The position numbers and the translations under genes are program-made. The notes below the pieces were generated by a model, which searched no databases, was not told the DNA's origin, and saw nothing but the letters and a program-made list of their open reading frames with translations. From the IMG/VR virus record IMGVR_UViG_3300042197_002757, positions 1-34,380 of that record: a stretch of DNA of 34,380 bases. The stretch is one strand, 5' to 3'. Shown here piece by piece: positions 1 to 15,489 of the stretch (its first letter is position 1; each line of letters starts with the position of its first letter). Origin of the DNA: a virus.

Positions 1-455
1 CTGCATTTAAAATTGCAGACATTCGAAAAACTAATCTCTACATATTTTGGATTAAAATCTTTGTCATACCCATCCTGTGTAATTTGGTCAAAATATGGTA
101 TGGACCATAATTCAGAACTTTTTAGAACGCGATCACTAAACTGATCAATATTATCTAAATCTTCTATATTCCAACAATAATTACATTCATTAGGACGATG
201 GCCTTCGAGCATTTCTTTTCTAATTAATTTCTTATATTCTGTGTTATGTAGAGCTGATGGTTTTTTTTGAATTTCTGCTATCGGAATTACATGAGTTCTA
301 GGATGATGACAACTATGTGTGTGACCTACACCTAAGTGAATCGTAGACTGAGTCCATTTAGCCAGACACATTCCCGGACCTATTTTGTCAAGAATATTTT
401 TGACTGCAAGTTTTTTATTTTCAGAATCCACTTTCTTCCAAGGATGTAAGTACAT
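1..455 (-). CDS. Twitch-type radical SAM protein, N-terminal part (3' end beyond window)
   Basis: The frame is open from about 455 to the window edge. The translation carries HTHSCHHP, then ECNYCW followed by IED, then PKYVEISFSNVCNFKC at the edge. The last motif is the start of a radical SAM CxxxCxxC [4Fe-4S] site; its third cysteine lies outside the window. The upstream His/Cys-rich stretch with a CxxC pair matches my memory of a radical SAM family frequent in marine phages. Such enzymes cleave S-adenosylmethionine to start radical chemistry; the substrate is unknown here. The start is uncertain. ATG at 455-453 overlaps the preceding gene by 35 bases and has no clear Shine-Dalgarno. GTG at 431-429 overlaps by 11 bases and has GGAAG three bases upstream. 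The gene follows another radical SAM gene directly, so the two are probably co-translated and may act together. Confidence 0.85.
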   Translation of the reverse strand, partial: MYLHPWKKVDSENKKLAVKNILDKIGPGMCLAKWTQSTIHLGVGHTHSCHHPRTHVIPIAEIQKKPSALHNTEYKKLIRKEMLEGHRPNECNYCWNIEDLDNIDQFSDRVLKSSELWSIPYFDQITQDGYDKDFNPKYVEISFSNVCNFKC

Positions 456-3315
456 CAGTTAATTCTGGTATAGTATTAAAAATATTTTCATTTCTAATAT
501 GATCTAATCTTTTTGTAATTTCTACAAACTGCTGTGCTTGACTTTTATCATAAGGTTTGGACAACTCAAATAATATTTGTAAAAAAATAAATCTAACATC
601 TGTTACATATCTTTCGTTATGTGTCTGAATAAAATTGTTTATTTTAGAAACTATTTGTTTTCTAAAATCTTCTGATAAAATATGGACATGATAATGGGAC
701 GGCCATTCTAACAAGTTTAAATAAAAGTTGCTAAATCTTCGAGTCGAAGTTATTACCCCTATACTGATTAAATAATCAATAATTTCCGGCAGTCTGAAAA
801 CATTCATTGCACCTGCAGTAATAGCCGGTCTTACATGTATGTTTGGTAATTTAGATAGTTCTATCAAATTATTTTCTACCTGTTTCCAAACAGTGCCGGA
901 TCTTATTAATTCTGCACGGTCACCAATCTCGTCGACACTGGGCCAAATTTCTAATTTTCCAGGTTGCCATTTACTCCAAATATCTAATATATTTTTCTTT
1001 TTATAAATAAGGGTTGATAAATTTGTATTATAAGATATTTTTACATCATATCTCTGATATTTTTGCAACAAATCTAATATATACCAATGTTCGTCCATTA
1101 ATAATGGTTCACCGCCAGCGAAATAAATTTTTTCAACTGTTTGAATTTGCTCTTCTAAAAATTCATAATTATTAGATGAACCAACTTGCTGTATATTCCA
1201 TACCTTCTCTTGATCTTTGACCCATCCCATTTTTTTGGCATCAGGTACCCATGATGAACTATATCTCGGTCCGCAGCTACGACATTTAAAATTACAAAGA
1301 TTACTAAATCTAAAATCCCAGTATCTTAAATCCATAGCGTGACATGTGCCGTCATCATCGGTAATTTTAGGAATGGAATCTATGACATGATTAAATTCTT
1401 CATTATGTCTAGTTCTACCACTATAACCAGCAGATGTTTCAGCGCTGAAACATTTAATACAAATTTCCGGTTGTTTTCCTTCTATCATAGTTCGACGAAG
1501 AGATTTCATATTTTCACTGTTCCAAATTTCATCAACTGTTTGATCATTTAGATCACCGGCAAAATATTCGAAAGTTGAAGTCAAGCAACAAGGAACTACT
1601 TTTCCATTAGGTTCAAAATTTAAATGCATCCATGGAATAGCACAAATTGTCTTTCGATCAAAAGATTTAATAGTTCTATCTTTTCCGTATTGTTCTCTGA
1701 GCCAATCAAAATCATTTATTTTAAAGAGGGCCTCTGGATTTTCTATATTCTCCAATCCATATGTTTTGCCTAAAGTGGCACCTTGCAATGCAAATTTACC
1801 GAAAGGTCGATCGGCACCTTTAGTACACCATGTCTCTAAACGATTATCTGTTTCTTCGTCATAATTTTTGTCAATCGGCTTAGTTGCCAACTTTACACAT
1901 TCTCGAAAAGCTGATTTCCAAGTATTAAACGGATCTGTATTAAACTTCGTGATATTACTTATCGTTGCGATAGATCTAAATTCAGTACTGATCGATAGAG
2001 TCATGTCTACAGTATTTGTATTCATTGAAAGAACTAAATCTTTGGGTAACAATTTTACTCCGCCATATCCATACACCAAATCATTTATAGGATTAATAGA
2101 TTGCCAAATAAAAACGATATCTCTTTCATATCTGGATACCTCATGATCAAATTTAAAATCATCTACTATTTCGGCATCTCCGTCGACTGCATAAAACATA
2201 TTCGTATCTGCTATTTCGGCTGCGGCTTTGTGTGCATTATGTATACCTTTTATACCATGCACTCTTTTAGATCGGGGAAATTTAGATTTTAATTTTTCAT
2301 AATTTTCATCTGCATTAGGCTCATTATAACTGATAAAAACAATATCATATGGCTTTAATTTCGACGCAACGATTTCGTATTGTTTCTTTTCGATAGGAAA
2401 TCTAAAATCTATTTCTTTTTTAGATAACTTTTTATTTTTTGGAACACAAGATATACCATTATATATTAATTCGTTTCTAAATTTATGTTGAAATACATGA
2501 TTAATATTTCTATCATATAGATTATGATGATTGAAATAAAGATCAAAGTCGAAATCTAAAACCTCTACTTCTTTAGGTATCATCCAAAACATTTCCATTC
2601 TACTTTTGTCGCAAGCATCGATATAATCATCATAGGTGTCTATGATAAATTTTTCAAATTGTTGAGGACGAGATGCAACTATATCTATTTCTTTTTTTTC
2701 TATAAAAAATCTATGTTCTAATTCTTTTTCCGTAACTGTTTTATTTTTAGGCATCAAACATATTCCGTCAAAAAAATTCTTATTTTTAAAAATATGTACA
2801 ATATGTTGGTTATGATATTCTATTTGATATTCAAAATTAAATTTTTCATCAATAATTATATCATTCCAGATCGCCCAAAATACATTAGTAGTTGATTGTT
2901 CTATAGCTTTTAAATATTCTTCATAAGAATTAATATAAAAAATATCATATTGTCTGGGCTCACTTGCCTGAATATCAACTTCTTTTTTAGCTGTATAAAA
3001 TCTATGCGTAAACTCTCTCTGCGAGATAGACAATGCCTTAGGTACTAAACAAAGTCCGTCAAAAAAATCTCTATTTTTAAACACATGAATATATTGTTCG
3101 TCCCATTTTGTTGCACGGTAGGCACTTAAATCAAAATCATCATTTAATATGATATCATCCCATACTACCCAATACATTTTAGTAAAGGCTTGATTTTTGA
3201 TCTGATCAAAAGATGTAATATTTTCTAATTTTTGTGCAGTAGGATATTTCTGCATTAGTTTTTTCCATTCAGCATCATTAAACTTATTATTGGAGATATA
3301 AAAAATATCATACAT
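421..3315 (-). CDS. Fusion: GT-A-like glycosyltransferase repeats plus C-terminal radical SAM enzyme
   Basis: This 964-residue protein has two parts. Residues 1-320 hold three tandem repeats of about 100-120 residues, each ending in a KKE/KKQ-x-x-I-x-A-S linker. Residues 322-550 form a glycosyltransferase-like domain (YDIVFISYNEPNAD, then DGDA near 376) that is clearly paralogous to the 302-residue protein encoded just upstream. The repeats align to its first half, but the DxD position reads WDD, WND and PKE, so they look degenerate. From about 556 come CAIPWMHL, GKVVPCC and CIKC, a SPASM/twitch-like cysteine region, then the radical SAM cluster CNFKCRSC (673-680) and AGGEP (about 733). ATG at 3315 overlaps the previous gene by 8 bases, indicating coupling. 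Base composition is very AT-rich. The radical SAM assignment is firm and the glycosyltransferase likeness good; substrate and catalytic competence of the GT part are unknown. Confidence 0.9.
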   Translation of the reverse strand: MYDIFYISNNKFNDAEWKKLMQKYPTAQKLENITSFDQIKNQAFTKMYWVVWDDIILNDDFDLSAYRATKWDEQYIHVFKNRDFFDGLCLVPKALSISQREFTHRFYTAKKEVDIQASEPRQYDIFYINSYEEYLKAIEQSTTNVFWAIWNDIIIDEKFNFEYQIEYHNQHIVHIFKNKNFFDGICLMPKNKTVTEKELEHRFFIEKKEIDIVASRPQQFEKFIIDTYDDYIDACDKSRMEMFWMIPKEVEVLDFDFDLYFNHHNLYDRNINHVFQHKFRNELIYNGISCVPKNKKLSKKEIDFRFPIEKKQYEIVASKLKPYDIVFISYNEPNADENYEKLKSKFPRSKRVHGIKGIHNAHKAAAEIADTNMFYAVDGDAEIVDDFKFDHEVSRYERDIVFIWQSINPINDLVYGYGGVKLLPKDLVLSMNTNTVDMTLSISTEFRSIATISNITKFNTDPFNTWKSAFRECVKLATKPIDKNYDEETDNRLETWCTKGADRPFGKFALQGATLGKTYGLENIENPEALFKINDFDWLREQYGKDRTIKSFDRKTICAIPWMHLNFEPNGKVVPCCLTSTFEYFAGDLNDQTVDEIWNSENMKSLRRTMIEGKQPEICIKCFSAETSAGYSGRTRHNEEFNHVIDSIPKITDDDGTCHAMDLRYWDFRFSNLCNFKCRSCGPRYSSSWVPDAKKMGWVKDQEKVWNIQQVGSSNNYEFLEEQIQTVEKIYFAGGEPLLMDEHWYILDLLQKYQRYDVKISYNTNLSTLIYKKKNILDIWSKWQPGKLEIWPSVDEIGDRAELIRSGTVWKQVENNLIELSKLPNIHVRPAITAGAMNVFRLPEIIDYLISIGVITSTRRFSNFYLNLLEWPSHYHVHILSEDFRKQIVSKINNFIQTHNERYVTDVRFIFLQILFELSKPYDKSQAQQFVEITKRLDHIRNENIFNTIPELTDVLTSLEESGF

Positions 3316-4216
3316 CTGTGTTCGTCCTATAATAGGTAAGACCTAAATTTATTGTTTCGTCGTACAAATCTAAAGTATATTTACTCTGCTGGGCGTCTAA
3401 CCACGGCCAATCTAAGCCTAAATTAATTTTTATCTTTTCGCCTAAATTCTTAATTTCATCTACCAACCCCTCGGCATTAACTTCTTCGTAGAGTCGACCA
3501 TACTGATTCCATATACCTCTAAGTATTTCAAAATCTCTAACATCTACATAGTTCCAATCAGTGCAGTTGGCCATCCATGTGCCTAATCTTGCACCATAGA
3601 TTGCATAAAGACCGTATTCTTCGTGAGCGCCAACTGTTGACCACATGCGTAATCTATGGATATTGTGCCACCAGATTCTCTGTTTTATTTCTTGAGGTGG
3701 AACTTTTACTCCGTCAAGCAGAGTCATTTTAACACCTTCACGGAATCCTGCCCTCCATGCTTGAAAAGGGCTGGCATTTATATAGACGTCGCTGAAACAT
3801 TGTGGAAATTGTTTATAACCATCTTCCCAGCAGAAATCTACCTGTGCTCGATCGCTGTCGCTGGCTTCGTGAGTCTGCATTTTTATGACGAAATCTTTAC
3901 GCCATAGTTTCAATCCTCCGTTGCCGTACATGAGTCCATTGACGATGTTTTTTCCTACCCAGCTGTAGACCTGTATGTTTTCTTTGATATCAAGATCTAA
4001 ATTAAAAAAACTGTTGTTTACTATATTATCAGCGTCAACACTAACAAAATATTCTGTGTCTGATAATTCTGCCGCGGCTTTATGGGCGTGGTCCGAACCT
4101 TTAACTCCGTGAACACGTTTGGCCCAGGGAACTTTATTGCATAGATCTGCATAATGTAGATCTGCATTAGGTTCATCATAACTCAAAAATACAACATCAA
4201 ATTCTACTATTTTCAT
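3308..4216 (-). CDS. Glycosyltransferase-like protein (GT-A fold, DxD)
   Basis: This 302-residue protein begins FDVVFLSYDEPNAD and has VDADN near residue 59, the DxD-type metal/nucleotide-sugar motif of GT-A glycosyltransferases. A YGNGGLKLW motif follows (the GG that commonly precedes the acceptor loop), and a C-terminal half contains FQAWRAGFREGVK and YAIYGARLG. The whole length matches residues 322-550 of the downstream 964-residue fusion, so it is a stand-alone paralog with an intact DxD. Its ATG overlaps the upstream stop as ATGA, so translation is probably coupled. Its G+C is visibly higher than its neighbours (27 of 60 bases in 3601-3660). No membrane segment or signal peptide is apparent, so it should act in the host cytoplasm. 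Donor and acceptor are unknown. Confidence 0.85.
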   Translation of the reverse strand: MKIVEFDVVFLSYDEPNADLHYADLCNKVPWAKRVHGVKGSDHAHKAAAELSDTEYFVSVDADNIVNNSFFNLDLDIKENIQVYSWVGKNIVNGLMYGNGGLKLWRKDFVIKMQTHEASDSDRAQVDFCWEDGYKQFPQCFSDVYINASPFQAWRAGFREGVKMTLLDGVKVPPQEIKQRIWWHNIHRLRMWSTVGAHEEYGLYAIYGARLGTWMANCTDWNYVDVRDFEILRGIWNQYGRLYEEVNAEGLVDEIKNLGEKIKINLGLDWPWLDAQQSKYTLDLYDETINLGLTYYRTNTDV

Positions 4217-4809
4217 TTATATTCGATAACGTAATTTTTAAAAATACGTCTAGTATAGACACTAAATTCTTTAGGAAAATATACACGGTAATCTAAAGAT
4301 TTCGATTTGAACAGTTGATCTACAGTAACGGATATTGTATCATAGAGAGCGTTAGGATCATTATAATCTGTAATTAAAAACAACATTTCTGTACTACCAT
4401 TCCATAGAATTTTTTTGGATTGATAAAACTTTTCCGATAATGTTATGATTAGTTTTTTCCTAGTTACATCAGCAGATAATGATATATCATTATCATTATT
4501 CTCCGACCAGCGTTGATCTATGATACGATGCAATACATCATCTATTTTCGTAAGGCTCTTAGTTTCTATTTTTTCTAGACCCCCACTTGAAATATCCACT
4601 GCATATGAATTTAAATTTGTTTTACCTTCCAACACCGATAATGCAACATCGTCATCAATATGTATTTTGTGATCAGTCTCGGGGCAAGAATGATTAGGAT
4701 AGATTCCTGTAATCTGCCCTGTAGACGAATCAAACACTGCATAATAAACAATTTCCTGTAACGGAATAGTCTTAAGCCATTCCTCGAAATCTTTTAGCGC
4801 AGCTTCCAT
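4213..4809 (-). CDS. Unknown protein in glycosyltransferase/radical SAM cassette
   Basis: I do not recognise a family for this 198-residue protein. The N-terminal half reads as a beta-rich small domain (EIVYYAVFDSSTGQITGIYP, then an acidic HIDDDVALSVLEG stretch), with a short KIDDVLHRIIDQRW helix-like segment in the middle. The C-terminal half contains LFLITDYNDPNALYDTISV. No transmembrane segment, signal peptide or cysteine motif is seen. A GAGGAG Shine-Dalgarno precedes ATG at 4809. The gene overlaps the upstream glycosyltransferase gene by 16 bases and touches the downstream one by ATGA, so it is embedded in the cassette. It may be an accessory or substrate-recognition subunit, or a structural protein being modified; neither is shown by sequence. 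Confidence 0.8.
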   Translation of the reverse strand: MEAALKDFEEWLKTIPLQEIVYYAVFDSSTGQITGIYPNHSCPETDHKIHIDDDVALSVLEGKTNLNSYAVDISSGGLEKIETKSLTKIDDVLHRIIDQRWSENNDNDISLSADVTRKKLIITLSEKFYQSKKILWNGSTEMLFLITDYNDPNALYDTISVTVDQLFKSKSLDYRVYFPKEFSVYTRRIFKNYVIEYK

Positions 4810-5636
4810 GCTATCTCCTCGAGGATGTTTATAATCTCATCAGTAATTAAATCTTTCTCTACGTAATGTACGATATGGTGTTGTTGATAATTTCCAATCT
4901 TTAGTCCAGCCTGTCTATTCAAATAAAAACCTACATGATGAGTAAACTTATCAGCTGGCCAAGGCCAGTTTTGAACCGATCCCTTCATATGTACTATTTT
5001 TGGAAAATCTAGATCGTAAGAAATATCATCGTATATATCAAGTATTTTGGCCGATAATGCAAATGCTTCATCGGTACCTACAATTTTCGGTTTATGTTGA
5101 GCGAAATAAATATTCGAATATTCTTTAGGATTTTTTATGATATGTCTACCTAATGCAAAAAAATCTTTGGCCAACGCAGAATCTTTCTTAAAAAATGTAT
5201 ACATTGAATAAAGATTCGGAAGATCGTTTTTAGTAAAACATCTACGATAATAATCGCTAGTTACTATTTCCTCTCTATAGGTGAATACTTTACCAGGAAG
5301 ATATACATCACAATTTTCTAAAAAATATTCTACCCAATGACTATAATCTCTTAAAAACAACATATCGACATCTAAACATATTGTAGATTCCCAAGGAGTT
5401 AATTTGTCCATCCACGATCTACCATTCCAGAATGCTTCCTGATTCCATTCTATAACATGATCAAAAACCCAAGGAGACTTAATTCTCTCTAACTGTTGTT
5501 TATCGTCGATAACTAACGCTACTTTATCAAATCCAGGTTTCTGCGTATTCTTAATGCTCAGTGCTAATGCATACGCCATTTTAAGATAATCTATGTTATC
5601 ATGTGAAGATACAACTAAAAGATAACCGAAGTTCAT
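4794..5636 (-). CDS. GT-A-like glycosyltransferase, paralog of the gene at 5633-6490
   Basis: This 280-residue protein has the layout of a GT-A/family-8-like glycosyltransferase. It starts with a beta strand and the motif NIDYLKMAYALA, has KVALVIDD near residue 40, TPWESTICLDVDMLF with the DxD at about 88, and GTDEAFAL near 190, which resembles the D-(E/Q) motif of galactosyl/glucosyltransferase-type enzymes. The tail has HMKGSVQNWPW. The upstream neighbour shares the order and wording of these motifs, so the two are tandem paralogs. ATG at 5636 overlaps that gene's TGA as ATGA. No membrane segment is visible. Sugar donor and acceptor cannot be predicted. The alternative is a catalytically silent GT-fold protein, but the DxD is intact. 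Confidence 0.82.
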   Translation of the reverse strand: MNFGYLLVVSSHDNIDYLKMAYALALSIKNTQKPGFDKVALVIDDKQQLERIKSPWVFDHVIEWNQEAFWNGRSWMDKLTPWESTICLDVDMLFLRDYSHWVEYFLENCDVYLPGKVFTYREEIVTSDYYRRCFTKNDLPNLYSMYTFFKKDSALAKDFFALGRHIIKNPKEYSNIYFAQHKPKIVGTDEAFALSAKILDIYDDISYDLDFPKIVHMKGSVQNWPWPADKFTHHVGFYLNRQAGLKIGNYQQHHIVHYVEKDLITDEIINILEEIAWKLR

Positions 5637-6490
5637 AGGCTCATCAACCTTTCATAGTGACGAATGATACTCTGTTTATTCATTATGTGTACATCACGAT
5701 CTTTAATTGATACCAAATAAAAAGATTCTGTATCTATACTAGATTTAATCGAAAAAATCATCCTTCCGTCATCATTTATTTTTTCTAAAATATCTTTATC
5801 TTGTACTGTAAAAACATCTGGTAAAGAAATTTGTGATTTTTCAAATCCGTCTAATATATGTTTGGCTACACTAAAGGAAATATCATTACGATATTGATCT
5901 GATTTAAATCTAAATAAATCGGCATAATATTTGTAATTTTCTCTTACGTAATCTACTAACTGGAAAAATATTTTACTTTTTTCGTTTTTTGTAAACATCA
6001 CTGTAGTTGCCCAATACAGATGGGTGCCTGTTTCCGAAACCCATCGATCTAAAACTCCGGATCGATCACCTTGTATATCATTAAAGCCTCCAGAAATTAA
6101 TATATCTTTGTCAATATCCCAATAATTATTTAAATTATCAGAACATATTAAAAAATCACTATCTATCAATAGACTACGTTCATATGGAGTATGATGCCAA
6201 ATTACAGATCTATTCGAATTTAAAAAGGGCACCCGATCATGATCGTTGCCATCATACAAAATTCTTTGATTATCAGTATCGGGTCTTTCCGTCGTAATTA
6301 TCTGATCGAAGATTGATTCTGTTTCTTTCCATATTTGAGATTGTTGCATCCATTGTATTGTTTCATCGTCAGTGATCAAAGATACCGGTACACCTAAATT
6401 TTTTCCTGCAAATTTAGCCGCAATCAATGCCATTTTAGCATAATCGATCTTTCGATTATTATGAGCTAAAATTATGATTCCCTTATTCAT
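5633..6490 (-). CDS. GT-A-like glycosyltransferase, first of tandem pair
   Basis: The protein has 285 residues if it starts at ATG 6490; a TTG six bases further upstream is possible but less likely. It begins MNKGIIILAHNNRKIDYAKM, then VSLITDDE, FDQIITTERP, and TPYERSLLIDSDFLI with a DxD near residue 108. A later SDQYRNDISFSVA segment fits the second acidic motif of GT-A enzymes. The motif order matches the downstream 280-residue paralog (IDYxKMA, xxDD, TPxExxxxxDxD). The start overlaps the end of the small upstream gene (TATGAATAA), implying translational coupling. It is predicted soluble. Likely an NDP-sugar-dependent transferase acting in the infected cell; the acceptor is unknown. Confidence 0.8.
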   Translation of the reverse strand: MNKGIIILAHNNRKIDYAKMALIAAKFAGKNLGVPVSLITDDETIQWMQQSQIWKETESIFDQIITTERPDTDNQRILYDGNDHDRVPFLNSNRSVIWHHTPYERSLLIDSDFLICSDNLNNYWDIDKDILISGGFNDIQGDRSGVLDRWVSETGTHLYWATTVMFTKNEKSKIFFQLVDYVRENYKYYADLFRFKSDQYRNDISFSVAKHILDGFEKSQISLPDVFTVQDKDILEKINDDGRMIFSIKSSIDTESFYLVSIKDRDVHIMNKQSIIRHYERLMSL

Positions 6491-6836
6491 AATCAACTAA
6501 CTTTTCTACAGATCTGCTTTTTTTGATCTTTTCGTATTCCTGTTGATAATCAGATGTCACAGAAAAATATCTGTCAAATATCTCAGTTTTAAATTGTTCT
6601 AGATCTTCGACCAATATAGGATTTTCGTTCTGATCTAACAGCACTACACCAGATGTCCTTCCTTCAGAACATAATAATGAGACAAAGGTCACTAGAATTC
6701 TATCGATTTTAAAAATACCGCCATTGTGGCCATAGGTCAATTTTGCCTGCATTTTTTCATTCAATGATCGACGTTGCACTGCAAGTGTCTGTCTGTAGTT
6801 AGAAAAATCCAAAGCTTTTTTAAGACGCTCGTCCAT
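6483..6836 (-). CDS. Small unknown protein, first gene of the glycosyltransferase/radical SAM cassette
   Basis: This 117-residue charged protein is one I cannot assign. The first 35 residues (DERLKKALDFSNYRQTLAVQ onward) look helical and basic. The middle contains GGIFKIDRILVTFVSLLC and LLDQNENPILVEDLEQFKTE, and the C terminus is a highly charged helix. No signal peptide is seen; the hydrophobic stretch is short. A strong GGAGG Shine-Dalgarno lies four bases before ATG 6836, but it is buried in an inverted repeat (6831-6888). The gene leads the cassette and overlaps the next by a few bases. It might be a chaperone or adaptor for the preceding fibre proteins or for the enzymes that follow; this is inference from position only. 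Confidence 0.78.
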   Translation of the reverse strand: MDERLKKALDFSNYRQTLAVQRRSLNEKMQAKLTYGHNGGIFKIDRILVTFVSLLCSEGRTSGVVLLDQNENPILVEDLEQFKTEIFDRYFSVTSDYQQEYEKIKKSRSVEKLVDYE

Positions 6837-6888
6837 ATTTCCTCCGTAGTAAACTGTACAGGTTATTTACCAGGAGAAAAATATGGAC
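6831..6888 (-). promoter_or_regulatory. Inverted repeat sequestering RBS and start codon
   Basis: In the mRNA sense, GTCCATATTTTTCTCC (6888-6873) can pair with GGAGGAAATATGGAC (6845-6831): ten base pairs, a small internal loop, then four more. Inside lies a second pairing, GTAAA with TTTAC, around a 12-base loop. The 3' arm contains the Shine-Dalgarno GGAGG and the ATG of the 117-residue gene, so the fold would block initiation. No U-tract follows the stem (the T-run is 5' of it), so it does not look like an intrinsic terminator. A regulatory role is inferred. Confidence 0.5.
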
Positions 6889-6895
6889 AAAAAAA

Positions 6896-7861
6896 TTATG
6901 AATAAATGAATGAACCGATGGATGTGGTACCACCACCCGCGGGATTCGGTCCGCTAGTAATGAAGTTACCTGCAGTTGGTGAAGGCTGTAACACACCACT
7001 GGCACGCACCATATCTGTAGTAATTGTTAACGTTCCATTAACAGCGTCTTCTGGAGGAATTCCTACTGGGGGAGGGGGATCAACATAAGGGTCATTTAAA
7101 AGAACTCTAATAAAAACTTGATTGGCAGTTCCGGAAGAGTTATCGGCTACATTTGATCTGGCCTGCAATCTATATGTATTACTAGAGTAAGGACTGCTGG
7201 CAGTAGCGGTATAAAAAGTTTGGAAGGTATTTGTCAGCCTGAAATAGTTTGTCCCATTTAGCGGACTAAATCCAGTACTAGGCAGTTGGCCACCGACACT
7301 TTGTTGTCCGGCTGAAGTTAAAAGATTTTCCCAAGATATGGTTTGAGCTTTGGTTACACTTTTTACAAAACTAGTTGTAACTCTCAGTCGACCTCCACTA
7401 TTAAAGAAAAATCTAGCTGTTTCTGCGGTGCTAAATGTATAGGTAATATCTGCATATATTTCGCTGAGCCAGGTTATATCACCAGAACTAACTGATGCTA
7501 GACTCTCGGTGACAAACTGACCTGAACCTAGATTAAACCTATTAGCTATAATGGTATCGGCAAGTGTATCGTATGAATTATTAGGATGACCTGCTCCGAA
7601 TCTTATCGGGGCACCAGTAGACACACTGACGATCGTGGGATTTGTACCGTTCTGATGGACTAGACAGTTAAAGATATCGAATCTTAAATTTCCCCATTGT
7701 GCGGCGGTGATATTGTTACCATCGGCTACCGCAGAACTCTGTAATCTAGCGGCTTGCCCGTAACCGGCATTTCCCGTACCGGTGCCTAAAACCGCTATAA
7801 TTTTATTTCTGATACCGTTGTAATCAACATCTTCGATAATTCCGCCGACACTGTTAGCCAT
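6896..7861 (-). CDS. Putative tail-fibre-associated structural protein
   Basis: This 321-residue protein begins MANSVGGIIEDVDYNGIRNK and continues with a glycine/alanine-rich stretch, AAQWGNLRFDIFNCLVHQNG and RFGAGHPNNSYDTLADTI. I recall similar proteins near fibre genes of marine myoviruses but cannot name a family. The middle (residues about 140-240) is rich in Ser/Thr/Asn with alternating hydrophobics (TYTFSTAETARFFFNSGGRL), typical of beta-structured virion proteins. The C terminus carries a proline/glycine hinge followed by TLTITTDMV and a Gly/Thr-rich tail. It lacks the N-terminal domain shared by the four upstream fibre genes, so it is not a fifth paralog. The start has AAGGATC nine bases upstream. 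A role as fibre or decoration component is inferred from composition and position. Confidence 0.8.
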   Translation of the reverse strand: MANSVGGIIEDVDYNGIRNKIIAVLGTGTGNAGYGQAARLQSSAVADGNNITAAQWGNLRFDIFNCLVHQNGTNPTIVSVSTGAPIRFGAGHPNNSYDTLADTIIANRFNLGSGQFVTESLASVSSGDITWLSEIYADITYTFSTAETARFFFNSGGRLRVTTSFVKSVTKAQTISWENLLTSAGQQSVGGQLPSTGFSPLNGTNYFRLTNTFQTFYTATASSPYSSNTYRLQARSNVADNSSGTANQVFIRVLLNDPYVDPPPPVGIPPEDAVNGTLTITTDMVRASGVLQPSPTAGNFITSGPNPAGGGTTSIGSFIYS

Positions 7862-7870
7862 TTTTGATCC

Positions 7871-9619
7871 TTAAATTACTATCGCTTCTATTAGTTTTTC
7901 TTCGACATCGTTGTTATCTTCTAAAGCGATAGCAAATACCTCAGAAGAATGACGTACAGATTTCGTAGCAAATCCATTATCAGCAGCGATTAAATTATCA
8001 CCTTTACAAACACTTCCTATAACTCTAATCGGAACCCTGCCTTTGAGTGCTATATACGTTCCGCCTTCTAAATCTTTGTTCATCATAAATGCTGGATTGG
8101 AGCTAACCACTCCTATAGCTCTTTTTCCAAATGAGGATGCAGTTACTTCTGCATTCCCGCCTACGCACATCACAGTCCCCACAGCATATTCTTTATCGCA
8201 TAGATATTTTTCTGCTAGGTCAGCATATCTGGCGGCAGTGGCAGTTCCATTGAATACATTTGCTGTAAGATTTCCGCCGCCATCCCTAGCTGCTATGGTA
8301 TTAGCTGACGCGGTAGTTTTTGCTGATTTAAAATTGGGATCGGTATCCGTAGCAAGATCGTTGATTCTCAACCTGTCGGACTTATCTGCTGTTCCCACGA
8401 ACTGATTTGCTATAAGATTTCCGCTACCGTCTCTTTCTGCTATTGTAGTTGCGGTAGCTGCACTAGATGCTAATTTGCTGTTTAGAGTCAATGCATTATT
8501 GGCGGTGCCTATGACATCACCTATGACATTACCTGTTAAGTTTCCTACGAACGCAGCGGTAACAGTTTTAGTAGCTGCGTTTATGATCGTGGTAAGATCG
8601 CTCGCTATAACATTACCAGTGACATTACCAGCGACATTACCGGTGACATTACCCGATAAATCGCCTGTAAATGTAATAGAATAGACATTGTTCCAGCGTT
8701 CGGAAACTTTTCCTAGAGTAAAAAAATTATTTTGACCGGGATATAGAGAGGTTCTATCAAAAACAGCTACATCTCGTTGATCGCCAGAACTTACTCTAAT
8801 TCTAATCCTAAAATCATCGCCTAATTGATTTTCTATTACAGGGAGAAGCCCGTCTACATAAAATCTAATATCTCTTTGATCGCCAAGATAAAATCCCTGA
8901 TCATCGAATTCTGCGCCTGAAGGTAATGCAGGATTAGACAATCTAACAAAATCCTCTGCCACGAAACTACCTAATTTAAGAGCATTAGCCGCTGTTCCCC
9001 AGAAATAATGATCGGTAGATGTAATTCCAGTCACACCATTAGTGTTAACTAATGTTATTCCTTTCTTTATTACCGAAAATCCTGTTATAGGAGTTTCGCT
9101 GCCCAGAGTGAACGCATCTTTACTGATAACCAGCATAGTTTCGCCACCAGCCAACAATTTCGCTATGCTATGTGTTCCACCGGTAGTATCTCTAACTAAC
9201 TGTGGTACTAGTGCCGAAGTGCCAATATCGGGGGCGTTTTCTGGACCGATCAATACGAATTCGGTACCGTTGAAAGCGTATAATTGCTGTCCGGCCGTGT
9301 CAAACCAAAAATCACCGGGTGTCAACCCGCTAGGTGCTGTTTGGCTGGCTTCTGCACCACCTGCTGTCCTAAACCTTGAGCCATCATAAAACTTTAATTT
9401 TTTATTCGCCGAATCGAACCAAATCTGTCCTGTAACAACTTTGGGAGGTGCTGTGGTATTAGAGAAATTTTCTAAAAGATGAAGGAAATTTTCGTTCTGT
9501 ACTTCGCCGTATCCGGCATAATTTTTACCTACGAATCTTAGATCAGTAGTCGTATCAATGGTTCCATCTTCGACTGATACTAAAAATGTTCCATTAAATT
9601 TATCTACTTGATACGCCAT
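7871..9619 (-). CDS. Tail fibre protein, paralog 4 of 4
   Basis: This 582-residue protein starts at ATG 9619; an upstream TTG would add one residue, but the paralogs begin MAYS or MPYI, which favours ATG. Residues 1-120 hold the shared fibre domain: DGT, GKNYAGYGE, NENFLHLLENF, GQIWFDS, KKLKFYDG, QQLYAFNG and a closing GP. The middle has LGKVSERWNNVYS, the fibre motif often found before terminal domains. Next comes a GNVTGN tetrapeptide run encoded by a 12-base DNA repeat (8611-8657). The end (from about 460) carries ARYADLAEKYL, an IGVVSSNPA segment and KGRVPIRVIG, the same terminal domain as the neighbouring 609-residue paralog. Such proteins form trimeric fibres for receptor contact. A candidate promoter motif and GGAGC ribosome site precede it. 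Confidence 0.88.
   Translation of the reverse strand: MAYQVDKFNGTFLVSVEDGTIDTTTDLRFVGKNYAGYGEVQNENFLHLLENFSNTTAPPKVVTGQIWFDSANKKLKFYDGSRFRTAGGAEASQTAPSGLTPGDFWFDTAGQQLYAFNGTEFVLIGPENAPDIGTSALVPQLVRDTTGGTHSIAKLLAGGETMLVISKDAFTLGSETPITGFSVIKKGITLVNTNGVTGITSTDHYFWGTAANALKLGSFVAEDFVRLSNPALPSGAEFDDQGFYLGDQRDIRFYVDGLLPVIENQLGDDFRIRIRVSSGDQRDVAVFDRTSLYPGQNNFFTLGKVSERWNNVYSITFTGDLSGNVTGNVAGNVTGNVIASDLTTIINAATKTVTAAFVGNLTGNVIGDVIGTANNALTLNSKLASSAATATTIAERDGSGNLIANQFVGTADKSDRLRINDLATDTDPNFKSAKTTASANTIAARDGGGNLTANVFNGTATAARYADLAEKYLCDKEYAVGTVMCVGGNAEVTASSFGKRAIGVVSSNPAFMMNKDLEGGTYIALKGRVPIRVIGSVCKGDNLIAADNGFATKSVRHSSEVFAIALEDNNDVEEKLIEAIVI
8611..8657 (-). repeat. 12-base in-frame tandem repeat in fibre gene
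   Basis: About four units of a 12-base sequence (plus strand CATTACCAGTGA with single-base variants) lie in tandem and encode GNVT/GNVA/GNVT/GNVI on the minus strand. Two related units occur at about 8511-8535. Because the unit is a multiple of three, gain or loss would lengthen or shorten the fibre shaft without a frameshift. Confidence 0.75.
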
Positions 9620-9636
9620 CAAAAAGCTCCAATTGT

Positions 9637-9649
9637 TATCTTATATTTA
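9637..9649 (-). promoter_or_regulatory. Candidate late promoter element
   Basis: The minus strand reads TAAATATAAGATA, 17 bases before the ATG of the 582-residue fibre gene, in a 44-base gap with no coding. The identical 13-base string occurs upstream of the gp6-like gene (33401-33413). Here it is preceded by GA, giving GATAAATA, one base from the T4 late promoter core TATAAATA. The assignment rests on this resemblance and on the two occurrences in intergenic gaps. Confidence 0.4.
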
Positions 9650-9663
9650 TCAGCAGTTTATTT

Positions 9664-11493
9664 TTAAAGTCTACCTACGACCACTTCGATCAAACCATCT
9701 AACCCGTCAAAATCCTCCAATGATTTGCCTATAATCGTGCCTATTTCTGGGTTTTCGCATGCCATAGCATACCCTTTTCCTGCAGAAATAAGCATATCTC
9801 CTTTCTTTATAAATCCTGTGACTTTACAGGGAACACGTCCTTGTAGAGCCAAAGGCACCACGAATTTTCCGGAAATTTTTGAGTTCATTAGATATGCGGG
9901 ATCGGTAGAAACCACACCTGCCACTGCTCTAGCAGCAGATTCCGCTAAGGTCACTTCTGCTTCTCCGCCAAACATCAGTACAGTGCCCGGTTCGTATGCG
10001 AAATCAGCGAGATAATTTTCTGCCAGATCAGCATATTGTGCCGTGGTAGCTGTTCCAACGAAAAATTCAGAATATACATTCTTCCATCTGTAATTCACAT
10101 GTCCGAGATTGATCGCTGTGTCTCGAGTAGCGGTCATCGAGGGAAAATTGGCGCCACCTAAAGATAATGCAACATCACCAGGTAATAATCCTATTCTAGC
10201 TGTAGAGCCAGGATATGCTGAATCTGCTACTTGTAAATACAAGGATTTGCCGGCTATCTGCGATGATAGAATCGGATCCTCAGTATTTGCATCCGCAAAA
10301 ACTCGCAAAACATTATTATTACCTACGGTTATTCCTGTATTTCTCACAGCTAAATTGTTTAGAAATCCAACACTTATGAGACTGCTGGCAGTAACATTAG
10401 GTGCCAGTGTGTTTCCAGTTAACGTACTAGATTCGGCAGTAACAATAACATTACTGGTACCATCAAACAGTGTACCATTTATAGTTCTAGGTGTTTCAAG
10501 TTTTGTCGCAGTAAAGGCATTTCCAGTAAAAGTCGCACCGATGACCTGGGCAGCCTGAACGACATTAAATGTGCTCGTGCCATTGTTTACCGTTACATTA
10601 CCTTGAACGTCGCCGATCAAGTTAGCTGTGATCGTTCCTGCACTAAAGTTTCCTGCACTATCTCTAGCTACAACTTTTCCTATCGTGTTATCTGCTGTTG
10701 CATCGACCGCCCAAGTAGAAGCGGAAGATCCGTTGAAATTACTTCCAGTTAAATACGTACCTCTGGTCAGTGCAGCCGTAGTCGTTGAAGTTATAGTTAT
10801 ATCGGTCTGACCATCAAAATTGATTCCGTTTATCTTCCTTGGATTTGCCAATCTAGATGCTGATTCTGCATTTCCTATAAGATCTCCTGTATAAGAATAA
10901 ATTTTATTTCCTGTTACGGTCCTGGCATTTAAATTTATTCCAGGTTTTATATTAAAAAATCCATCAATAAAATCTGAAATACTTATAGAAAACTCATCCG
11001 AGCTGATTATACAAATCGTCTGATCGTTGTTTACAAGTTCTAGAATGGGGTGAGCTGTTCCGGCAGAGTCTCTAATAGACCTCGCTCTAGCCTTGGTCGT
11101 TGCGAAATTTTCTACTGCTTCGGGACCTACTAATATCCATCCATCGTTATAGACATAGAGTTGATTGGTATCTTGATCAACCCATAACCCGCCTTCGGTG
11201 CCGGAAGGTTGAGAGTTAGAAACCACTGCAGACCCCACCGACTTCCAATCGATTCCATCATAGACGTTTAACGTTTTATTTTGGCTATTAAACCATGTTT
11301 GCCCGGACAAAGGTCTAGAAGGCGGGCTAGCGTTTGCGAAATTTTCTAAAAGATATACGAAATTTTCATTCTGTATCTCGCCATATCCAGTATAATTCCT
11401 ACCAACCAAACTGATACTGGTAGATACGTCAACCGTTCCATCATCTAATACAGTTAATTGGGCACCACTAAATCTATTAATTATATAAGGCAT
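9664..11493 (-). CDS. Tail fibre protein, paralog 3 of 4
   Basis: This 609-residue protein opens with the shared N-terminal fibre domain (GRNYTGYGE, NENFVYLLENF, GQTWFNS, KTLNVYDG, NQLYVYNDG, then GP at about 125). The middle (200-450) consists of Ser/Thr/Asn-rich beta repeats with recurring ARDSAGNFSAG and PRxINGxxFDG motifs, each ending in ITxxS-type strands. LGHVNYRWKNVYSEF precedes a terminal domain at about 482-609: YADLAENYL, GTVLMFGGEAEVT, VAGVVSTDPAYLM, LQGRVPCKVTG and KKGDMLIS. I recall this end from many phage fibres, but no self-cleavage serine can be assigned. The ribosome site is GGAGCG. The next fibre gene upstream stops 12 bases before this start. Likely a receptor-binding or connector fibre. 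Confidence 0.88.
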   Translation of the reverse strand: MPYIINRFSGAQLTVLDDGTVDVSTSISLVGRNYTGYGEIQNENFVYLLENFANASPPSRPLSGQTWFNSQNKTLNVYDGIDWKSVGSAVVSNSQPSGTEGGLWVDQDTNQLYVYNDGWILVGPEAVENFATTKARARSIRDSAGTAHPILELVNNDQTICIISSDEFSISISDFIDGFFNIKPGINLNARTVTGNKIYSYTGDLIGNAESASRLANPRKINGINFDGQTDITITSTTTAALTRGTYLTGSNFNGSSASTWAVDATADNTIGKVVARDSAGNFSAGTITANLIGDVQGNVTVNNGTSTFNVVQAAQVIGATFTGNAFTATKLETPRTINGTLFDGTSNVIVTAESSTLTGNTLAPNVTASSLISVGFLNNLAVRNTGITVGNNNVLRVFADANTEDPILSSQIAGKSLYLQVADSAYPGSTARIGLLPGDVALSLGGANFPSMTATRDTAINLGHVNYRWKNVYSEFFVGTATTAQYADLAENYLADFAYEPGTVLMFGGEAEVTLAESAARAVAGVVSTDPAYLMNSKISGKFVVPLALQGRVPCKVTGFIKKGDMLISAGKGYAMACENPEIGTIIGKSLEDFDGLDGLIEVVVGRL

Positions 11494-11505
11494 TTATCGC
11501 TCCAA

Positions 11506-13383
11506 TCATGATACGAACGTCCATGCTCCTGTTACTAGCTGGAAGGTTTTAACGACGCGAGTTGGTGTTATCGCAGGTGCCGGAATAGTAGCTGTGGCGA
11601 ATGCCACTGGTTCAATTACCGCTGGGGCTGTGCCGGTAGGAGTAACAAATGTCGCCGTGGTCGTTGATACTAATGTGTTAATGTTTAAACTTGTAGATCC
11701 TGCCGATAAAAAACTACACACAATCCTCGCGATCGTTCCATTTTCATATTCGTTTACTGGAGCGATCTGAGACAACAAAGTGGCTATGCCGCTGTTAGAA
11801 ATACCGTCCGAAATATCTAGGCTTAAAACAATAGACCTAGTCCTTACGAAATTAGTCACATATTCTTTGTTAGTCGCTTCCGATAGTTGAGTAGCGGACA
11901 ATAATGTGCTAGATTCGGTGGTTTGAGAAACACCGGCCTGGCCAGTAGTAGCCAATCCTTCTATCTTAGGAGATCCTATCAACACAATATCTCCTGTACC
12001 ATTAGGTGCTAATTCTAGATCCTGATTAGTCTGAATTGTTGATATTCTATTGTCCTGTATTCGTGTATAGGTAGTAGGCGTAGTCGCAGGGGCTATGACC
12101 GGTCCCACATTGAGGACGACCTGCGTACCGAAACTGGTAACTCCTGGAATGCTAGTGATCCCAGATCCAAGAGAAGTACCGGAGATCACAGTCACACCAT
12201 TGATTTTAAATTCTTTACCGCTGACCAAATTGATGTGTTCGGTGGAAAACCATGCTGTTTGAGACCTATCCCAGGTCCATTCGTGATCGGTCGCTCCGCG
12301 AACAACTATACCTCCGCCATCTGCATATTCGTCGGTGGAGGTGCTATCTCCGGTATTCGCCAGAGTAATCTGTTTATTTTCTACTAATAATTCAGTGGTT
12401 TTGATAACATTGACATCTCCGTCGTTGATCACCAGGTTGCCTTTGATCGTGACATCACCTTCGACTGTGAGATCTCCCCCTGCGGTAATTTCGCTAGTTG
12501 GTATTCCAGAATATAAATTAATTCGCCTATTTAATGCATCGATATTAATAGCTGTTTCAGCTACAATTCCGCGTCTAACTAATAAATTTAAAGCTTTGTC
12601 TGATGCAATATTAGTCAATAACACATCTCCGTTATTAACTGTTAATTGTGCTTGACTGGCATCACCTACAATCAACCCTAGATTAGATGCTAATATTAGC
12701 TGTCCGTCGATGATATTAGAAGTATCATTCCTAACATATACACTAGCAGGCTGTCCTCCTAATTGATCCGAATTAGTACAGGTGACATTAAATTTAATCC
12801 CTGTTAATGTACCGGCGTTAAAACCTGGTTGGATATTTCCACTAAATCCAGTTATAGGTAATTTCGGTGTGAAAGAGTCTTTGCTGAAAATACCTATCAA
12901 AATTCCATTGGTATATAGATAGGTAATTACTCGACTTTGATTTAGTGTATCTAATATTGTCGCTACTCTTAGACCACTTAAACCTTGACCTTCTGAGTAA
13001 TCCGGCCCTAGTAAAATCGTGTTGGTACCATCATAAAAAAATAATTGTTTATTTAGATCATCAAACCAAAGATCGCCGATTCCCAATGTCAGTGGTTGGC
13101 TCGTAGATATAGTAGCTGAGCTGACTGGTACAAATGCCGTTCCATTATACACCTTAAGCTTTGATTCGGACGCATCAAACCATATCTGACCCCGTATGGG
13201 ATTCGAAGGCTGAGATGTGTCCGCAAAATTTTCTAATAATCTAACGAAATTTTCATTTAATGTTTCTCCGAATCCACTATAGTTTTTTCCTATCAAGGTT
13301 ATATCAGTAGAAAACTGATCTATCTGTCCGTCTGCTACCGTAGCTAAAATCGTTCCATCTGTTTTATTAATCGAATATGCCAT
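11506..13383 (-). CDS. Tail fibre protein, paralog 2 of 4
   Basis: This 625-residue protein has the shared N-terminal domain (GKNYSGFGE, NENFVRLLENF, GQIWFDA, KQLFFYDG, GPDYS). The body contains fibre-shaft motifs: GDLTVEGDVTIKGNLVINDG (regular beta-helix-like strands), a GGGIVVRG segment followed by EWTWD, and DLELAPNGTGDIVLIG. The C terminus (from about 490) is an unrelated Thr/Ala/Pro-rich segment ending in VVKTFQLVTGAWTF, without the terminal domain of paralogs 3 and 4 and without a collar domain. It may therefore be a shaft or intermediate segment joined to other fibre proteins, or may carry a novel tip. The start ATG has AAGGAC upstream. Gaps to both neighbours are about 10 bases. Confidence 0.87.
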   Translation of the reverse strand: MAYSINKTDGTILATVADGQIDQFSTDITLIGKNYSGFGETLNENFVRLLENFADTSQPSNPIRGQIWFDASESKLKVYNGTAFVPVSSATISTSQPLTLGIGDLWFDDLNKQLFFYDGTNTILLGPDYSEGQGLSGLRVATILDTLNQSRVITYLYTNGILIGIFSKDSFTPKLPITGFSGNIQPGFNAGTLTGIKFNVTCTNSDQLGGQPASVYVRNDTSNIIDGQLILASNLGLIVGDASQAQLTVNNGDVLLTNIASDKALNLLVRRGIVAETAINIDALNRRINLYSGIPTSEITAGGDLTVEGDVTIKGNLVINDGDVNVIKTTELLVENKQITLANTGDSTSTDEYADGGGIVVRGATDHEWTWDRSQTAWFSTEHINLVSGKEFKINGVTVISGTSLGSGITSIPGVTSFGTQVVLNVGPVIAPATTPTTYTRIQDNRISTIQTNQDLELAPNGTGDIVLIGSPKIEGLATTGQAGVSQTTESSTLLSATQLSEATNKEYVTNFVRTRSIVLSLDISDGISNSGIATLLSQIAPVNEYENGTIARIVCSFLSAGSTSLNINTLVSTTTATFVTPTGTAPAVIEPVAFATATIPAPAITPTRVVKTFQLVTGAWTFVS

Positions 13384-13392
13384 CTTTTGTCC

Positions 13393-15489
13393 TTAGAATG
13401 CGGGTAGCCCAGAGCGTATGATGTAATTTATCGTGAGGTAAGGATTCATCACGGCAAATGGTTGCCCTAACGAACCAGACGTTCTTACACCTCCCGAACT
13501 TGGTAGATATTGACTCTGACCTACTGTAGTCGGACCTTTATCGCTGAATGCTCCGGAATCTAACGGTGCTGCGGTATCGATTCTCGTGGCAAAATATTGT
13601 TGTCCGGTAGATCCTCTCATATTGTGTTCATGATCTGGAAGATTGCCCACTATAAGAGTATTAGAACTTTGTCCTCCGAATCCTGCAAGATTGTCTGCGG
13701 CTGTTCCAGGTACTCTGTCTATGTTTCCTCCACCAGCATCTACATATCCTCCTGTGTTGTTCGGAACGGTGATGCCATTCTCCATGTTATCACGACCTAG
13801 AGCGAATCTTCCTCTTAGATCTGGCAATCTATAAGTTCCAACTCCAACAAGGGCAGCCGAACCATTATACGTAGTACCTATGACATCGAACAATAGATTA
13901 TATCTTACTCTTTCTAATTCGCTTCCGTCACACAAAAGATATCCTTCTGGTACATTGGCACCAGCAAATGGAAAAATAGTTCCGATAGGTACAGCAAGAT
14001 CTGCAAAGAAGGCATTTCTAGTTTGTTTGATAAGACCTTTTCCTGAACGAAAAACAAGAAGAGTGTCGCTGGCTAAAGACTGCGGATTATCTTGAGCGCC
14101 TCCAGGTAATTGCTGCGGAAATAGTTTGCTGCTTATGAGTCCAGGTGAAATCTCAGTTACAAACGTTTTAGTAAGGCCGCCGACCTGGCCATCGAAGGTT
14201 ACGGGAGGAGCGGAAACATCTCCGCTAAACTGAAAAGAGGTTGCGAATCTAAGATTGGTGGCTGTGCTAGCATTACCGACTATGTTTCCGTCGAGGGTCC
14301 CTTCAATAACATCTGCCACTAATCTTTTGGTTCTAACATTGTTCCATCTTCGACTAGCCGTACCTAGATCATAAAAATCTGTAATCTTAGGCGATGTATT
14401 CGCTAAATTGGCTGAACCAGTTACATCTATAGATTCTCCTACAATGAGATTTTTAGCGATAGAAACGCCGCCGGCGGTTCTTATGGTTCCATTAGTTAAA
14501 TTTGTAGCAACATTAGAATTCGTAACGATGATATTACCATCAGTTAGGACGTTTCCAGACACTTCTAAAACTTCGTTGGGGTCTGGTACATTGATTCCTA
14601 CTTTATTGTCGATGACACGAAGTATAGTTTCAGGAATACCCCCTCTATTGATTTGTAGATCTAAGCTACTCCCTTCGGCAGAATTATAAATTTTTGCCGC
14701 AGTTGTTGAAGTAGTCAAACTGAAATTTCCGTCGGTACCTATGTTAATACCAGAATTATTTCTAATGTTAATGCCAAACTCTGTGGTATTGATAACATCG
14801 GATCTCAAAAAACTTCCGGCAGGTATTTCAACACCAGAAATATTGAGAGCATCGGCAGTGTTTGCTTTACCCCACAGCTTTGTCTCGAGATCGTTATCAT
14901 CTACCTGCAACGAAGTTATATTCAACCCTGTCCGTATTATGTTGAATCCCGGTATAGAAATTTTAGGAGTAAAACTATCTTTGCTGATTATAAAAATTGG
15001 TTCGTCTTCTACATAAAAAGTTAAAACAATCCTGTCTTGGCCATCGGAATCATCAAGTTGTTCTACTAATGGACCACTTCGTAATCCCGTAGAAAAATTG
15101 GGTCCAACCAGAATCCATCGTGTTCCAGAAAATATGTATAATTGTTGGTTAGTTGTATCCACCCAAAGTTCGCCTAATCTTGCGGAATCTACCGCAGGTT
15201 CTACGGGGCTTTTTTGTATATTAGAAGCTGCCTTCCATTGCACGTTATCCCATATCTTTAATACACCTTCGGCACTATCATACCATAGTTGCCCCTCAGT
15301 GGGATTTGTTGGAGCTGTAGATCTAGCAAAATTTTCTAGCAGAGCAAGAAAATTTTCGGCGATTATCTGTCCATAACCGGTGACATTTCTTCCCGGAAAA
15401 ACCAAGCTAGTATCTGTGCTAGAGGTATTATCGAATACTGTGATCGGTACTTTATTTTCTCTATCTGTAAAGTTTACAATATATGGCAT
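13393..15489 (-). CDS. Tail fibre with C-terminal phage collar domain, paralog 1 of 4 (gp12-like)
   Basis: This 698-residue protein has the shared N-terminal domain (GRNVTGYGQ, AENFLALLENF, GQLWYDS, QQLYIFSG, GPNFS). Shaft repeats include SGNVLTDGNIIVTNSN and LGTASRRWNNVRT. From about residue 500 it carries a textbook phage tail collar domain: PIGTIFPFAG, PEGYLLCDG, YRLPDLRGRFALGRDN, LPDHEHNM and a final MNPYLTINYIIRSG. In T4 this domain occurs in the short tail fibre gp12, which binds the cell surface irreversibly. This protein therefore probably supplies the short-fibre tip, with the PDHEH histidines as candidate metal ligands by analogy with the gp12 receptor-binding end. It is the first of the four fibre genes, two bases after the 226-residue gene, with GAGG before the ATG. 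Confidence 0.92.
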   Translation of the reverse strand: MPYIVNFTDRENKVPITVFDNTSSTDTSLVFPGRNVTGYGQIIAENFLALLENFARSTAPTNPTEGQLWYDSAEGVLKIWDNVQWKAASNIQKSPVEPAVDSARLGELWVDTTNQQLYIFSGTRWILVGPNFSTGLRSGPLVEQLDDSDGQDRIVLTFYVEDEPIFIISKDSFTPKISIPGFNIIRTGLNITSLQVDDNDLETKLWGKANTADALNISGVEIPAGSFLRSDVINTTEFGINIRNNSGINIGTDGNFSLTTSTTAAKIYNSAEGSSLDLQINRGGIPETILRVIDNKVGINVPDPNEVLEVSGNVLTDGNIIVTNSNVATNLTNGTIRTAGGVSIAKNLIVGESIDVTGSANLANTSPKITDFYDLGTASRRWNNVRTKRLVADVIEGTLDGNIVGNASTATNLRFATSFQFSGDVSAPPVTFDGQVGGLTKTFVTEISPGLISSKLFPQQLPGGAQDNPQSLASDTLLVFRSGKGLIKQTRNAFFADLAVPIGTIFPFAGANVPEGYLLCDGSELERVRYNLLFDVIGTTYNGSAALVGVGTYRLPDLRGRFALGRDNMENGITVPNNTGGYVDAGGGNIDRVPGTAADNLAGFGGQSSNTLIVGNLPDHEHNMRGSTGQQYFATRIDTAAPLDSGAFSDKGPTTVGQSQYLPSSGGVRTSGSLGQPFAVMNPYLTINYIIRSGLPAF

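Follow-up and report, generated by a model that had tools for sequence, protein, structure and literature searches.

The tailed-phage fragment IMGVR_UViG_3300042197_002757 (34.4 kb), analyzed here over its whole length of 34,380 nucleotides and hereafter called the window, carries at one end a cassette of seven open reading frames (ORFs; 3–6836) for glycosyltransferase (GT)-like, radical SAM and uncharacterized conserved proteins. All seven, like every window feature located below, lie on the minus strand, and neighbors overlap by 4 to 35 bp, in keeping with an original prediction of seven overlapping or touching genes on the strand of the tail fibers. The gene order on this strand runs from a gp25-like gene (PF04965) to a gp6-like baseplate wedge gene (phrog_10646), a giant ORF and g13, and then through four fiber/collar paralogs, g8, g7-g6-g5-g4-g3, a fused GT/radical SAM gene and a second radical SAM gene. 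The cassette had been placed directly behind the fibers; strand and region were right, but the structural gene g8 (6896–7861) lies between.

Enzymes of the cassette

The operon opens with g7 (6483–6836), a conserved 117-aa protein, followed by g6 (5633–6490, with an alternative TTG start at 6496), g5 (4794–5636), the conserved 198-aa protein g4 (4213–4809), and g3 (3308–4216). Alignment and fixed position define g7 and g4, and Pfam and PHROG scans of g4, g7, and g8 relatives gave nothing usable. An assembly or adaptor role for g7 is possible. g6 and g5 are paralogs (24% identity, E 8e-6) and appear to be GT8/glycogenin-like glycosyltransferases, with the motifs IDSD and LDVDM, respectively. 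Neither single window sequence matched a Pfam GT family at E 0.1, while a joint g5 and g6 profile matched glycogenin-1 in the PDB over positions 16–122 (E 1e-5). The alignment of g3, which belongs to an uncatalogued family with the motif VDADN, has invariant YGNG and FREG motifs. Its profile found no relative among PDB sequences, and its homology to residues 319–516 of the fused protein (37% identity, E 1e-37) identifies it as a predicted GT-A glycosyltransferase.

The fused ORF (421–3315; 964 aa), assigned by family match and structure model, begins with three degenerate GT half-repeats of ~105 aa (2362–3315), continues with a GT-A glycosyltransferase module bearing the motif VDGDA (1678–2361), and ends in an N-terminal twitch (N_Twi)/SPASM and radical SAM domain (448–1659). 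Residues 555–955 matched NCBIfam NF033640 (N_Twi_rSAM) with 361 bits, against a curated cut-off of 170, and PF13186 with E 1.5e-13; the cluster cysteines are C674-x3-C678-x2-C681 and the auxiliary ones C558, C576, C577, C619, and C622. The second N_Twi radical SAM gene (3–455) is cut by the contig end, leaving its 5' 151 aa, and scored 119 bits against NF033640, below the cut-off because of the truncation; a close relative has a 386-aa open frame. The predicted pair of radical SAM enzymes thus matched one family, with the second visible only as a fragment. The fused ORF is split into separate genes in three relatives (L003, L006, and L007).

A structure model of fused-protein residues 1–546 (predicted local distance difference test, pLDDT, 92.7) placed the GT-A domain at about residues 320–475. 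Foldseek matched the module to chondroitin polymerase (E 2.5e-6), and also to RmlT and N-acetylgalactosamine (GalNAc) transferases. VIA-align gave Z scores of 11.4 for B4GALNT1, 10.4 for the S-glycosyltransferase ThuS, and 9.1 for the PBCV-1 capsid glycosyltransferase over 130–140 residues. These matches settle the fold as modeled, not the acceptor. A Bdellovibrionales relative passes PF00535. With the module, g3, and the g6/g5 pair, the four GT-like units of the original prediction were all recovered.

Phage DNA hypermodification, in which the cassette would add sugar to modified bases, has to be weighed against this fold. Phage glycosyltransferases are generally known for such a role, and related contigs have a possible QueE gene, recognized by eye, that indicates an independent route of base modification. 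The modeled transferase is GT-A, however, while the T4 DNA glucosyltransferases are GT-B, and PF00303, which includes dCMP hydroxymethylase, was absent from 12 related virus contigs of 109–280 kb, some of them incomplete. DNA modification is unlikely for these two reasons. It also fits poorly with the linkage of the cassette to tail genes and with bacterial relatives in chromosomal glycan-type clusters, and we rate it lowest of the explanations considered. The QueE-like gene (7-deazaguanine synthesis) stands in the replication-side block of two relatives (L006:18020-18889 and L012:22531-23403) and suggests a separate DNA base modification.

Each half-repeat is a decayed version of the GT-A domain's first half, in which WDD, WND, or PKE replaces VDGD and no DxD is left. 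Their number among relatives, judged from GT-protein length, ranges from 0 to about 13; the GT protein grows in ~105-aa steps from 222 aa, with no repeat, to 1622 aa. Such an array could be a length-variable arm, able to diversify by recombination. Arrays of this type precede a single intact GT at L012:9113-13981 and L043:9152-13762.

An arm without DxD, together with g7 and g4 that lack an enzymatic signature and the fixed place behind the fibers, might suggest that the GT-like proteins are not catalytic as a set and serve as scaffolds or chaperones for fiber folding or attachment. We consider this improbable. The motifs are kept nearly everywhere in the catalytic units: DxD in 94/94 g3 proteins, 116/118 GT modules, and 76/80 g6 proteins, LDxDM in 89/91 g5 proteins, and CX3CX2C in all 233 radical SAM proteins of relatives. 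Moreover, there are relatives with the same fibers that do without these GT-like proteins.

A conserved operon behind g8

Recruitment with the fused protein or g3 yielded 124 IMG/VR loci, in which the prevailing order was fib1-g8-g7-g6-g5-g4-g3-(repeats)GT-rSAM(n), where rSAM(n) stands for a varying number of radical SAM genes. g3 followed g4 in all 94 loci that contain g4, and upstream of g4 stood g5 (93/93), g6 (91/91), and, three genes ahead, g7 (68/68), preceded by g8 (59/61) and fibers (31/31). From g7 through the GT, adjacent genes touch or share bases, the median gaps lying between -13 and -4 bp. Because recruitment by the cassette selects for it, we also recruited with fib1 only and kept the 68 loci in which it is followed by 4.5 kb or more of sequence. 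The whole cassette was present in 66 of these, and the remaining two end before g4; where at least 9 kb followed, a radical SAM gene was found in 48/48. Recruitment with g13, which leaves little downstream sequence, found g7 next in 7/10 informative loci; in one exception (L006) two additional genes stand before g7, and the sequence of two other loci stops soon after g8. The survey of relatives thus bore out the proposed linkage to fibers as conserved and old. Cassettes far from structural genes were looked for and not found: g3 lies 2.5–3.5 kb from g8 in the 12 virus contigs (109–280 kb) and in one phage-containing metagenome-assembled genome (MAG). One large contig has an extra g3/GT pair further along, and the one to nine radical SAM genes per large contig lie mostly, not exclusively, beside g3. 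The g3 family occurs in at least 599 stretches in IMG/VR. With over 100 related contigs showing it, the arrangement lies well outside what chance would produce.

Identities among the 18 loci with all genes complete followed those of the structural gene g13, with r 0.86 for the cassette, 0.86 for g8, and 0.84 for fib1. The tracking argues that the GT core is old and inherited vertically with the tail, as a shuffled island of auxiliary genes would not be. An apparent coevolution of g8, but not fib1, with the GTs was dropped; the signal came from fiber fragments and disappeared in a clean analysis.

The adhesin-like g8, present in 1–3 copies among relatives, was modeled (pLDDT 87.5) as a beta-rich protein with a helical N-terminus and a beta-sandwich. 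It matched phage proteins in BFVD (E 3.5e-23) and had no convincing match in the PDB (best Z 7.1; Foldseek E 0.0085). Its homolog gp360 in the cultured Pseudomonas phage PA5oct is annotated 'ESI-MS/MS', a label we take to mean detection by mass spectrometry, and g8 is therefore most likely a virion protein. One relative has a different arrangement, unique among 197 g8 copies: its sole g8 with a 24-proline run is also its sole g8 directly followed, 5 bp later, by a 2-oxoglutarate (2OG)-Fe(II) oxygenase gene (PF13640), and then by a DUF6065 gene (L006:4654-7320). This single case hints at possible hydroxyproline chemistry on the adhesin.

g8 ends 59 bp ahead of g7 in the window, and the gap measures 50–68 bp across loci. 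It holds TAAATA (6864–6869; window copy GTAAATAA), a T4-late-promoter-like element at -33 of g7. In 60/61 loci TAAATA stands no more than 60 bp ahead of g7, usually between -31 and -34; mononucleotide shuffles have it in 10%, and the regions upstream of g6 and g5 in none of 162 (0/71 and 0/91). It also precedes fib1 in 32/40. T4-type late promoters carry a TATAAATA-like box some 30 bp ahead of late genes. The core of that box is present, and the full TATAAATA occurs in part of the loci and is absent from the window copy. Since related contigs encode a gp23 capsid protein (PF07068), T4-type late transcription of the operon is plausible, and a late-like element ahead of the cassette is what one would expect of enzymes at work during virion assembly. 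The element is followed in the window by the palindrome CTGTACAG (6854–6861), and most loci have a conserved palindrome of the AAACTGCGCAGTTT type between TAAATA and the g7 ribosome-binding site, a candidate operator or RNA hairpin.

The four fiber/collar genes (7871–15489), fib4 (13393–15489), fib3 (11506–13383), fib2 (9664–11493), and fib1 (7871–9622), are mutual paralogs with matches to the collar family PF07484 and to tail-fiber PHROGs, which confirms their earlier identification as fiber genes. A single 4609-aa ORF between gp6 and g13 (16144–29973) would encode a giant tail or baseplate protein. A search for the sheath family PF04984 gave no phage matches. Relatives of gp6 among cultured phages belong to jumbo phages such as Salicola phage SCTP-2, Atu_ph07, and PA5oct (34–37% identity). 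PA5oct-type Pseudomonas phages have gp6, giant-protein, g13-, fiber-, and g8-like genes in the window order; the giant-ORF position is occupied by the 3857-aa gp355 and the fibers by gp358 and gp359, all three annotated 'ESI-MS/MS' like gp360. After the g8-like gene come convergent small genes and no cassette, so the modification would be dispensable for tail assembly. The cassette was most likely gained by the aquatic lineage, unless the PA5oct group lost it. A tblastn search with g3, g5, and g7 of the window and g5 and the GT module of a marine relative (L024) had no match in 50,697 cultured-phage records, so the cassette was not found in any cultured phage. The Vibrio phages K566 and K567 have N_Twi radical SAM genes with no GT or fiber annotation within 15 kb. 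The carriers are large, mostly uncultured aquatic phages.

Proposed acceptor and product of the cassette

From the operon with its conservation, its vertical inheritance alongside structural genes, its enzyme folds and motifs, and its late-like element, we infer catalytic activity, an acceptor, a chemistry, and a benefit as follows. Transcription of g7-g6-g5-g4-g3-GT-rSAM would begin at a T4-late-type promoter between g8 and g7, at the time when tail proteins are produced, and the cassette would be translated as a single translationally coupled unit. Glycogenin-like g6 and g5, with the GT-A g3 and GT module, would build a short glycan, and the often present, variable pseudo-GT arm may bind the acceptor. 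The SPASM/twitch radical SAM enzymes, whose number and type vary by phage, would tailor the glycan or the polypeptide. The acceptor would most likely be g8 and/or the fibers, with receptor binding altered or the tail shielded. Late glycosylation of g8 and/or the fibers with radical SAM tailoring is the explanation we favor, and we hold it with middling confidence.

Bacterial relatives bear on both acceptor and product. Six loci emerged when bacterial genomes were scanned once with the GT module. Among them is a 335-kb contig of a jumbo phage that had been sorted into a Marinimicrobia MAG, a case of phage contamination of a bacterial bin; this contig and a 153-kb contig of the same MAG (L127 / G020:C57 and C77) share jumbo-phage genes. 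A Bdellovibrionales MAG contig (L129:1-12107) carries g8-g7-g6-g5-g4-g3-rSAM-rSAM 35 bp from an apparent pheT, with fiber and gp6 homologs not found on the contig, and could be a version that is domesticated or of prophage origin, or else a mis-assembly. As g8 is kept there with g7-g3 and fibers are not, g8 rather than the fibers is the constant partner. The g3 family occurs in 9/129 Bdellovibrionia genomes, and several of these loci lie in chromosomal clusters that also hold genes for radical SAM, GT2, flavin oxidoreductase, epimerase, and aminotransferase enzymes (some assigned by eye). The glycan-type setting of these tail-free relatives argues that the cassette enzymes are probably genuine glycan makers. 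The original prediction had named the fibers or another virion surface as the thing modified; for the fibers themselves this found no firm support, given that bacterial relatives of the enzymes act in tail-free glycan-type clusters.

Three of the six loci suggest another product. In Photorhabdus the GT-module relative is flanked by GT1- and GT2-type genes within what resembles a biosynthesis cluster, as would suit a cassette that made a soluble natural product or a nucleotide-linked signal or antimicrobial with the radical SAM enzymes as main catalysts. The count of up to 9 radical SAM genes in some phages and the halogenated-metabolite clusters proposed in cyanophages (PMC7824862) point the same way. 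However, no precursor-peptide, non-ribosomal peptide synthetase/polyketide synthase (NRPS/PKS), or exporter gene was recognized in the phage cassettes seen, and what stays constant is a set of GTs next to a virion gene; we regard this explanation as unlikely. The Photorhabdus chromosomal cluster (L130:8774-16294, also L131 and L132) comprises a radical SAM gene, GT1, the GT-module relative, and two GT2-type genes, with an isopentenyl-diphosphate isomerase and an ABC exporter recognized by eye, and is apparently a natural-product or glycoconjugate locus.

Several observations weigh against glycosylation of g8 or the fibers. PA5oct-like phages have the same fibers and g8 without the cassette. 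After correction for overall divergence only weak covariation is left between g8 and the genes of the cassette (partial r -0.07 to 0.38), and TAAATA also precedes some genes not recognized as virion genes. Where the cassette is present, g8 contains 24.1% Ser+Thr, hardly more than the 22.2% in PA5oct, and we rejected Ser/Thr enrichment as a sign of O-glycosylation since this is no real difference. Finally, the tail-free bacterial clusters of g3 relatives, which include GT2/GT4, epimerase, aminotransferase, and flavin oxidoreductase genes, could make a surface glycan or a small molecule.

The main rival is that the cassette alters host O-antigen or capsule late in infection or in pseudolysogeny, blocking superinfection or virion re-adsorption, and that adjacency to fibers links receptor recognition with receptor alteration. 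This is the published reading of GT clusters in pelagimyophages (PMC7029224) and in jumbo phages and cyanophages (PMC7824862). GT8-like enzymes are typical of lipopolysaccharide (LPS) synthesis, bacterial g3 relatives sit in envelope or natural-product glycan clusters and work without tails, and variable extras in related islands include a UDP-sugar dehydrogenase, a DegT aminotransferase, and possible SGNH esterases. The published clusters, however, are described as sporadic and polymorphic, in contrast to the invariant, vertically inherited core seen here. A late-like element is a poor fit to early masking, scans of the cassette proteins turned up no flippase, polymerase, or lipid-carrier transferase family, and g8 travels with the GTs without fibers. 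We judge alteration of the host surface a real possibility, though not the probable one.

Glycosylation of the tail can be stated more narrowly. In this form, which we offer tentatively, widespread uncultured large T4-like phages would use a four-GT machine with interchangeable radical SAM enzymes to make a radical-tailored glycan on g8, the invariant GT core giving the linkage and the variable radical SAM set diversifying the glycan. Receptor range would then change by a chemical rather than a sequence route. A role in immune or defense evasion is speculation.

Relation to known systems

The original prediction held the combination to be undescribed, which proved incorrect. Pelagimyophages, which like the phages here are T4-like and aquatic, have a 'host recognition cluster' that joins tail fibers, GT8 glycosyltransferases, and radical SAM cassettes in one region (PMC7029224). 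Theirs lies between VrlC and gp14 as a hypervariable island without synteny (PMC7029224), in contrast to the fixed order g8-g7-g6-g5-g4-g3-GT observed here (94 and 68 loci), where the radical SAM genes are the variable part. The marine T4-like genome TARA_ERS488813_N000010 (183 kb, 12 radical SAM genes) resembles two of our relatives (L024 and L042) in size, type, and radical SAM number; the section describing it reads these genes as Fe-S metabolism and gives no tail linkage or GT operon (PMC5332604).

Moraphages, large aquatic phages with Bacteroidota as predicted hosts, have four putative glycosyltransferase orthogroups in their core genome, which we liken to g6, g5, g3, and the GT by description only; radical SAM enzymes are unmentioned (PMC12619734). 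The LPS/capsule-type GT clusters of jumbo cyanophages such as P-SSM2 also combine several GTs with sugar-modifying enzymes, but are sporadic, polymorphic, and rich in sugar synthesis, with no fixed operon behind an adhesin (PMC7824862). Phage-encoded GTs that act on virion proteins are known from mycobacteriophages (Freeman 2023, as described in PMC12619734), where that account gives glycosylation of capsid and tail-tube subunits as shown experimentally. Here that function is proposed, with radical SAM enzymes added.

Fiber, GT8, and radical SAM cassettes, radical SAM-rich T4-like genomes, core GTs, and virion glycosylation are therefore each known separately. As far as our searches reached, what is new is an invariant operon led by a late-promoter-like element and tied to the g8 adhesin, a pseudo-GT repeat arm fused to a GT and a radical SAM domain, and tail-free bacterial counterparts. 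We know of no radical SAM enzymes in virion maturation. If a tail protein is the acceptor, the receptor-binding surface would be changed in chemistry, not only in sequence; the cassette would supply the GT and radical SAM enzymes, g8 would be the candidate acceptor, and PA5oct-like phages, which share the adhesin but lack the cassette, would be a natural control. GT clusters in large phages would then not all be host-surface 'auxiliary' genes, and some would belong to core virion biology. Likened by description only, flagellin glycosylation islands also set a GT core and variable sugar-tailoring enzymes beside the gene of a surface filament, there the cellular flagellin rather than a phage tail.

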